Shown here one piece after another: positions 7,396-30,500 of a stretch of DNA of 32,207 bases. The notes beneath the pieces are model-generated. The model did no database searches and was not told where the DNA came from. It worked only from the letters and a program-made list of their open reading frames with translations. Position 1 is the first letter of the stretch, and every line of letters begins with the position of its first letter. Location: positions 1-32,207 of the forward strand of contig CANBVO010000007.1 in NCBI GenBank assembly GCA_947372915.1, written 5' to 3'. The position numbers and the translations under genes were made by a program. Origin of the DNA: Actinomycetota bacterium (GTDB lineage Bacteria; Actinomycetota; Actinomycetes; Nanopelagicales; Nanopelagicaceae).

Positions 7396-7413
7396 ATTAA
7401 TGAGCAAATGATG

Positions 7414-7512
7414 GCGGAGGATGTCCGAAGTCGTGACATCCGCATCAGGCACTGGTTCCAGCTGAGCCACTGAATAAGAAAATGAGTGATTCAGCCGGAG
7501 CGAACGAAGTGA
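7414..7512 (-). repeat. 99-bp diverged copy of the tRNA-Ser 3'-flank repeat unit
   Basis: gcggaggatgtccga...ttccagctgagccac...aatgagtgattcagccggagcg...ga; matches the units at 8242 and 8335; lies directly 3' of tRNA-Ser(CGA). Confidence 0.9.
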
Positions 7513-7513
7513 G

Positions 7514-7596
7514 CGGAGGATGAGGGATTTGAACCCTCGAGACTTTCGTCTACGCGTGTTCGAGACGCGCGCACTCGGCCGCTATGCGAATCCTCC
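7514..7596 (-). tRNA. tRNA-Ser (anticodon CGA)
   Basis: GGAGGAT..ATCCTCC acceptor stem, T-arm GAGGGTTCAAATCCCTC, anticodon stem CGCGT-CTCGAAC-ACGCG, long variable arm; no encoded CCA (followed by CTC). Confidence 0.95.
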
Positions 7597-7611: not shown

Positions 7612-7998
7612 CTAGTTCTTTTTAGTGGTTTTTCGTATTTCTAGACCAGCGGCGATACCAGGAACATCTAAATCCCCAGTTGCAACTGCGAGTACCAATT
7701 TTTCTGCAGAATCCACATCATTAAAGATGTCGTAGTTATTGAGTAAGCAAAAAGTTCTGGTTGCAGCCCACGCTAACCGCTTATTGCCATCAATCAGCGG
7801 ATGATTTCTTGCTAGCGAATGCATCAAGGATGCCGCTTTTAACTCGAAGCCTTCATAAGCATCATTGCCGTATACCGATGTTTGAGGTCTTGCAGCCGCA
7901 GCCTCAAGCAAACCGATATCCCTGACCCGAAAATCATGGATGAGGGCGGCGCCAATTTCTAAAAGGTCGTGAATGTCGAGGAAGTCGATGGCTGCCAT
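7612..7998 (-). CDS. Fic/Doc-family toxin (short Doc-like)
   Basis: Fic motif HPLIDGNKRLAW, 128 aa, overlaps the stop of an RHH-type antitoxin. Confidence 0.88.
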   Translation of the reverse strand: MAAIDFLDIHDLLEIGAALIHDFRVRDIGLLEAAAARPQTSVYGNDAYEGFELKAASLMHSLARNHPLIDGNKRLAWAATRTFCLLNNYDIFNDVDSAEKLVLAVATGDLDVPGIAAGLEIRKTTKKN

Positions 7999-8195
7999 TA
8001 CTTAGCCAAGCGATCCAGTAATTCCTTATCCTCAACTGCGATTCGGGAGATTGCGTCTTTCAATCGAAGTTGACGCTTAGAGATATATTCATCGATGGCG
8101 GTTAGGGCAATTTCATGCATCGATGCACCTTGCGCCTCAGCAACTTTTTTGAGCCCAGCGCTTTGCTTTTCGGAGAGCCGTAATGTCATAGCCAT
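7998..8195 (-). CDS. Ribbon-helix-helix antitoxin of Fic/Doc module
   Basis: MAMTLRLSEKQSAGLKKVAEAQGASMHEIALTAIDEYI: RHH-like; start trimmed to ATG at 8195 because the longer ORF start runs through a palindromic operator. Confidence 0.82.
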   Translation of the reverse strand: MAMTLRLSEKQSAGLKKVAEAQGASMHEIALTAIDEYISKRQLRLKDAISRIAVEDKELLDRLAK

Positions 8196-8202
8196 GGCGA
8201 AA

Positions 8203-8221
8203 TGATACCACGGTGGTATCA
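8203..8221. promoter_or_regulatory. Perfect 19-bp palindrome, putative TA autoregulatory operator
   Basis: TGATACCAC-G-GTGGTATCA immediately upstream of the antitoxin ATG; minus strand contains TATCAT as -10-like box. Confidence 0.75.
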
Positions 8222-8241
8222 AATTCCAGTGGCGGAGTTTG

Positions 8242-8427
8242 GCGGAGGATGTCCTAGCTTGTGACTTCTACATGGGGCAGGGGTTCCGGCTGAGCCACCT
8301 AGAATGTAAATGAGTGATTCAGCCGGAGCGATGAGCGGAGGATGTCCGAGCTTGTGACTTCTGCATGGGGCAGAGGTTCCAGCTAAGCCACCCAGAATGT
8401 AAATGAGTGATTCAGCCGGAGCGATGA
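8242..8427 (-). repeat. Two tandem 93-bp units (8242-8334, 8335-8427) downstream of tRNA-Ser(GGA)
   Basis: gcggaggatg starts at 8242, 8335 and 8428 (exact 93-bp spacing); the two units differ at 6 of 93 positions by eye. Confidence 0.95.
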
Positions 8428-8428
8428 G

Positions 8429-8513
8429 CGGAGGATGAGGGATTTGAACCCTCGATAGGTTTCCCTATACACGCTTTCCAAGCGTGCGCACTCGGCCGCT
8501 ATGCGAATCCTCC
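8429..8513 (-). tRNA. tRNA-Ser (anticodon GGA)
   Basis: GGAGGAT..ATCCTCC acceptor, anticodon stem CACGC-TTGGAAA-GCGTG, long variable arm TATAGGGAAACCTAT, T-arm GAGGGTTCAAATCCCTC. Confidence 0.95.
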
Positions 8514-30271: not shown

Positions 30272-30404
30272 AAATGACTCCTTTGAGGGTAGCAACTCTG
30301 CTTTCGGTAGTGTAAACCAGCACTGAACACGTGAGCCATAGGTGGCGCGAGTGGTTTTGCCCACGCCCGCACTGACGGCCCGCACGCCTAAGATTGGCCC
30401 TAGA

Positions 30405-30500
30405 TCCTCCGTGTGGCATTACCGTACTGAACTCCCCCAGGGCTGGAAGGCAGCAAGGGTAGGTGCGCTCTGATGGGTGCGCGGGGGGTCCCCAATATTG
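30405..30500 (+). ncRNA. ffs: Signal recognition particle RNA (small, 4.5S-type)
   Basis: Domain IV signature CCCCAGG-GCT-GGAA-GGC-AGCA-AGGG; located just upstream of dnaX. Ends approximate. Confidence 0.85.

Follow-up and report, generated by a model that had tools for sequence, protein, structure and literature searches.

Short gene-less units (~100 bp) at tRNA-Ser 3′ ends of Nanopelagicaceae: a probable non-autonomous integrative mini-element

In the Escherichia coli tyrT locus (rtT RNA), tandem repeats behind the tRNA re-copy the tRNA 3′ end. The units described here, which stand behind tRNA-Ser genes of a Nanopelagicaceae bacterium, resemble that locus in layout only; the tRNA, the unit length and the organism are different, and no RNA structure or product is supported for them. 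Repeated tRNA fragments also mark the flexible island of Ca. Actinomarinales, in which gene cassettes sit at tRNA genes (PMC7771536), and the additive flexible island of ‘Ca. Methylopumilus’, in which the last 20 nt of tRNA-Lys are repeated and which spans 330 bp-42 kb with 1 to 63 CDS (PMC10872708). With the former the units share a setting in streamlined planktonic actinobacteria and a repeated tRNA fragment at the cassette end, and with the latter the recurring tRNA 3′-end repeats, which there precede the additive islands. Nevertheless, unlike the Actinomarinales gene cassettes, the units are 93-101 bp long and gene-less, possess their own conserved arms and may occur in tandem, while they differ from the Methylopumilus islands in their size (~100 bp), their content (zero CDS), the phylum and the tRNA (tRNA-Ser). 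A regenerated tRNA together with a displaced 3′ fragment is the standard outcome of integration at a tRNA 3′ end (the Islander principle), and the Islander search additionally tests each tRNA genomic island for an integrase gene (PMC4383910). Regenerated tRNA genes and displaced 3′ fragments in the same orientation (8240-8251 and 7412-7423) are both found at the present locus, whereas the units contain no integrase, both PF00589 proteins being encoded elsewhere in the genome, and the units of the window hold no cargo; a related form in genome G220 has ~0.85 kb of it. MITEs and CALIN (integrase-less integron cassette arrays) are likewise non-autonomous, with enzymes supplied in trans (PMC11389934). 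In the model proposed below, the units resemble them in being non-autonomous and in depending on an enzyme in trans; unlike the transposon-derived MITEs with their terminal inverted repeats and CALIN with their attC sites, they are built on a tRNA 3′ end and have unrelated arms. Cassettes bounded by tRNA repeats are thus already known from streamlined plankton, and the present units are a gene-less extreme of that kind; a limited search of the open-access literature found no description of gene-less ~100-bp units at tRNA-Ser in Nanopelagicaceae.

The window, i.e., the whole stretch of DNA analysed (32,207 nucleotides of contig CANBVO010000007.1), contains two tRNA-Ser genes that are followed by such units, and all features of both loci lie on the minus strand. 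The gene for tRNA-Ser(GGA) (8428..8513; identified by ARAGORN, Rfam RF00005 and the sequence itself) ends in the proximal core CATCCTCCGC at 8428-8437, after which the sequence continues with TCA, such that CCA is no longer fully encoded. Unit 1, including both cores, spans 8335..8437 (proximal core 8428-8437, distal core 8335-8344), with the LEFT arm at ~8402-8427 and the RIGHT arm at ~8345-8382. It shares its distal core with unit 2 (8242..8344; cores 8335-8344 and 8242-8251; LEFT ~8309-8334, RIGHT ~8252-8289), beyond which the displaced original tRNA 3′ end, CATCCTCCGCCA, retains its CCA at 8240..8251. On the plus strand the tRNA 3′ end reads gcggaggatg and starts at 8428, 8335 and 8242, a spacing of exactly 93 bp; TRF reports a period of 93, 2.1 copies, 94% matches and 0 indels. 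The preliminary description of this DNA had given the same starts and spacing, an identity of ~94% between two full units and the regeneration of the tRNA 3′ end by each unit, all of which are borne out (the interiors of units 1 and 2 are 93% identical, with several differing positions). It had correctly counted two units behind tRNA-Ser(GGA) and overlooked a third, located 0.8 kb away behind the second target gene, tRNA-Ser(CGA) (7513..7596, ARAGORN; proximal core 7513-7522). Unit 3 (99 bp) occupies 7414..7522 including both cores, with the LEFT arm at ~7481-7512 and the RIGHT arm at ~7424-7461, and shows 82% identity over 90 bp. The displaced tRNA 3′ end CATCCTCCGCCA recurs beyond it at 7412..7423, where it adjoins the 3′ end of an aldehyde dehydrogenase gene.

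With 83-89 bp between cores, the units of the window are too short for a gene and none was found in them. At the Rfam gathering score no match covers the units, the window yielding only tRNA-Ser(GGA) and an SRP RNA; the latter is a bacterial small SRP RNA gene (RF00169) at 30400-30496. In this genome tRNA-Ser(TGA) and tRNA-Ser(GCT), both of which lack this core, are free of units. The 35 tRNA genes detected besides the two targets were each screened for a second copy of their last 10 bases as far as 350 bp downstream, and tRNA-Tyr alone gave one. This tRNA-Tyr(GTA) locus, outside the window (G000:C40:9345-9564; L260 65-305, L264), is a similar array: behind the tRNA stand three tandem 69-70-bp repeats (98% matches), each of which regenerates the tRNA 3′ half CTGTAAATCCCC...CACCCGCCACCA with a ~20 bp spacer; G002 and G008 have the repeat as a single copy. 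The interval separating the two tRNA-Ser genes of the window contains a Fic/Doc-family gene of 128 aa (7612..7998, minus strand; Pfam PF02661, E=2.6e-14), overlapped at its upstream side by a small ORF of 65 aa (7998..8195, minus strand) whose only Pfam match, DUF6290, is sub-threshold (E=0.0026) and which, from its position, is probably the antitoxin of the Fic gene. A palindrome, GATACCACCGTGGTATC, is present at 8204-8222 just upstream of this ORF and may serve the toxin-antitoxin pair as an autoregulatory operator. Both genes are context or cargo and lie outside the unit.

Read on the tRNA strand, the units of the family follow the order core CATCCTCCGC, LEFT arm (typically TCGTTTCACTCGCTTCGGCTGAATCACNNATT), RIGHT arm (typically CTGGAACCAGTGCCTGATGCAGAAGTCACAAGCTCGGA) and core, the core being 10 bp identical to the tRNA-Ser 3′ end. 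Full units measure 90-101 bp (112 bp in genus g12), and most of them have the same LEFT/RIGHT junction and near-equal length (93-101 bp) across genera g1, g10 and g11; arm motifs such as TGGAACC are conserved. Besides full units, the family includes forms with only the RIGHT arm (64-69 bp), one in which the RIGHT arm is doubled (132 bp) and a remnant of 31 bp. Several units have a loose direct repeat, CACNNATT...CRCNNATT, in their middle, as read from the sequence without statistics. A hairpin of the window units, GGCTGA..TCAGCC, was dropped as a candidate feature since relatives do not keep it.

The pattern of two cores 70 to 100 bases apart (core-N{70,100}-core) matched three times in the genome itself and was positive in 15 of the 298 genomes of the family, in which the reversed-pattern control gave 0 matches. 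A profile built from 19 units found matches in 63/298 family genomes at E<=0.01, a lenient cut-off at which the weak end of the list is uncertain. Strong profile matches are confined to genera g1, g10, g11 and g12, and those with enough contig around them all lie at the 3′ end of tRNA-Ser(GGA)/(CGA) or in an insertion array there. The earlier suggestion of small tRNA-targeting elements is thereby supported by a family at tRNA-Ser 3′ ends in relatives, and absence from the tRNA 3′ ends of all relatives, which had been named as a point against it, is contradicted. Outside the family, a single pattern match was obtained among 297 genomes sampled across the class (G501), and it is unlike the unit; in a pattern scan of all GTDB species, most of the matches listed are not in the tRNA-Ser arrangement. 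An artefact of assembly, the other doubt raised at the outset, was rejected in its simple form of duplication, as units 1 and 2 differ and copies recur in many genomes, several of them well inside long contigs (e.g., G202, G203 and G273). Both paralogous tRNA-Ser genes carry units in the window genome and in G229. The closest relatives of a unit tend to come from the same genome or genus, and much of the distribution could reflect vertical descent rather than recent movement between species.

The rebuilt tRNAs of the window read CATCCTCCGCTCA and the displaced ends CATCCTCCGCCA; rebuilt tRNAs have GCTC, and the displaced cores of the window, G236 and G273 have GCCA. Most unit-free tRNA-Ser genes of the genus encode CCA (CATCCTCCGCCA), the unit-free tRNA-Ser(GGA) of G017 reads CATCCTCCGCCAAT, and in G013, of the same genus, a unit-free tRNA-Ser(CGA) has behind it the aldehyde dehydrogenase end that lies beyond unit 3. 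These comparisons between unit-carrying and unit-free sites are between different species rather than near-identical strains. G021 was rejected as an empty site for unit 3, the alignment there being to a right end of another type (see below) with no tRNA. Judged from these sequences, a displaced distal core, often with the CCA that the rebuilt tRNA has lost, is the footprint expected of site-specific integration. Loss of the encoded CCA appears to be tolerated because several other tRNA genes of the genome lack it too, presumably through a putative CCA-adding enzyme. Compared between genomes, units have a mean pairwise identity of 0.69, against 0.58 just past the distal core, the level of shuffled controls (0.57); the unit thus has sharp boundaries and counts as a discrete element. 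Several distal flanks (e.g., L219, L227 and L034), from several genera, have a DnaA-box-like sequence, TGTGGATAAC, at a distance of 10-45 bp from the displaced end of tRNA-Ser(GGA), and a dnaX-like gene is adjacent in some of those genomes.

Other elements use the same core. A second (“type-2”) right end reads ...CGGGGAATTACCCAGGNTGAAGAGGATAAATCCCT with the core behind it. In G161, G185 and G255 it terminates cassettes of 1-2.4 kb, the genes of which are mostly uncharacterised, and in G221 it stands at the edge of a contig. The left partner of this end, CCTGGGTAATTCCCCAG, repeats the arm in inverted orientation; in G185, G054 and G206 it comes immediately after tRNA-Ser, and a tyrosine integrase gene (PF00589) comes next; this tRNA-Ser integrase was found in 3/298 genomes. 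The integrase elements 3′ of tRNA-Ser have inverted GGGGAATTACCCAGG / CCTGGGTAATTCCCC arms (L272 2932-4660, L291 and L292); they have the core in common with the window units and differ in the arms, and unit-free tRNA-Ser genes are among their targets. Ends closely similar to theirs bound a 2.2-kb cassette in G161 that is without the integrase. The type-2 system points to tRNA-Ser as a functional site of integration and to the presence of integrase-less cassettes there. In G255 (L037 3800-8259) an array at tRNA-Ser(GGA) comprises a unit and then two successive cassettes, both of them closed by a core copy, with genes for large predicted secreted-type proteins, one having a weak peptidase M23 match. 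G221 and G191 have a unit and its distal flank in common, the unit of G221 being preceded by a type-2 right end instead of the tRNA. Lastly, one contig of G220 carries the tRNA and a bare unit, and another carries ~0.85 kb of cargo with the same RIGHT arm and distal flank (L215 and L216); the cargo is flanked by two exact copies of the RIGHT arm and holds a 177-aa ORF with no Pfam match. The two contigs may represent different strains in one metagenome bin.

Taken together, the units are probably a non-autonomous, cargo-less integrative mini-element, essentially attachment-site DNA served by a recombinase in trans. This reading is favoured because of the target specificity, the discrete boundaries and the CCA footprint, the unit-free tRNA-Ser(CGA) with the same aldehyde dehydrogenase end in G013, the insertion of other elements (type-2 cassettes and integrase elements) at the same core, the cargo-bearing and cargo-less versions in G220 and the occurrence of units at two paralogous tRNA genes in each of two genomes (that of the window and G229). 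The main rival to the mini-element takes the units for immobile attL/attR scars, the leftovers of larger tRNA-Ser cassettes from which deletion or recombination removed the cargo. Larger cassettes do sit at the same core, there are truncated forms as well as RIGHT-only (64-69 bp), doubled (132 bp) and 31-bp ones, no cognate integrase is known, and G220 has versions with and without cargo at one site. Random deletions, however, would be expected to leave varied junctions, whereas the LEFT/RIGHT junction and the length are near-constant across g1, g10 and g11 and motifs of the TGGAACC type are kept; this constancy speaks against random scars without proving movement, and the scar reading is judged rather unlikely.

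A host-maintained landing pad beside tRNA-Ser, capturing gene cassettes in a role like that of an integron attachment site, would suit the conserved arm motifs and the cassettes and the cargo insertion found directly at or inside unit cores. It is improbable given the patchy presence of the units (63/298 genomes even at the lenient cut-off) and the use of unit-free tRNA-Ser genes by integrase elements. Least credible is an RNA device, whether a decoy for the tRNA 3′ trailer, a regulator of processing or a source of sRNA, options that had been entertained for the repeats from the start on the model of E. coli tyrT/rtT. Co-transcription with the tRNA is possible, no terminator-like site having been found between tRNA and units, and in an equilibrium fold of the tRNA with its units (a model that ignores co-transcriptional folding and tRNA modification) the tRNA 5′ strand pairs with the distal copy. 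The pairing with downstream copies envisaged earlier is therefore reproduced, the distal copy being preferred, but it is equally strong with shuffled units and so a generic effect of any 3′-end copy in the model. Moreover, RNAalifold on 19 aligned units yields three pairs and no covariation, folding energies equal those of dinucleotide shuffles (mean z of -0.23 and -0.19 on the two strands), and most relatives have no units. A small effect of the units on tRNA maturation is conceivable.

For the mini-element, the following course may be envisaged. A site-specific recombinase supplied in trans, probably a tyrosine integrase, would join the core of an excised copy to CATCCTCCGC at the 3′ end of tRNA-Ser(GGA)/(CGA); the core of the element would rebuild the tRNA end, and the original end with its encoded CCA would be pushed to the far side. 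The tandem pair could have arisen from a second integration at the rebuilt core or from unequal recombination between cores, and the element itself may derive from a larger cassette minus its cargo. Mobility as such is what we infer from the arrangement of the units. No recombinase bearing the LEFT/RIGHT arms was found, the integrase found at tRNA-Ser (3/298 genomes) having other arms. The genome itself (91% complete) encodes only two PF00589 tyrosine recombinases, of a size typical of XerC/XerD and not in units, and no serine recombinase (PF00239). Scans of IMG/VR with patterns of the arms, of the type-2 end and of the tRNA end, together with blastn against phage records, revealed no free or phage-borne copy of the unit, and a search of IMG/VR with the integrase gave nothing relevant; a phage origin was rejected, the matches obtained being unlike the unit or representing tRNA genes on other contigs. 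It is conceivable, as a tentative extension, that the units form an active family reduced to the bare attachment site (~93 bp as a circle) and moving among the tRNA-Ser genes of Nanopelagicaceae with a recombinase in trans; with the same reserve, such a family might be likened to a MITE that targets tRNA genes.

Despite their small genomes, streamlined freshwater actinobacteria maintain variable islands at tRNA genes. The units have the appearance of pared-down relatives of the larger gene cassettes for which these tRNA genes serve as docking sites, and their repetition is the probable reason for the breaks that some assemblies show there. Conserved gene-less elements at such positions are a sign of a dedicated insertion system, whose probable recognition sequences (the core, the LEFT arm and the RIGHT arm) they reveal; this would help to locate the missing recombinase.
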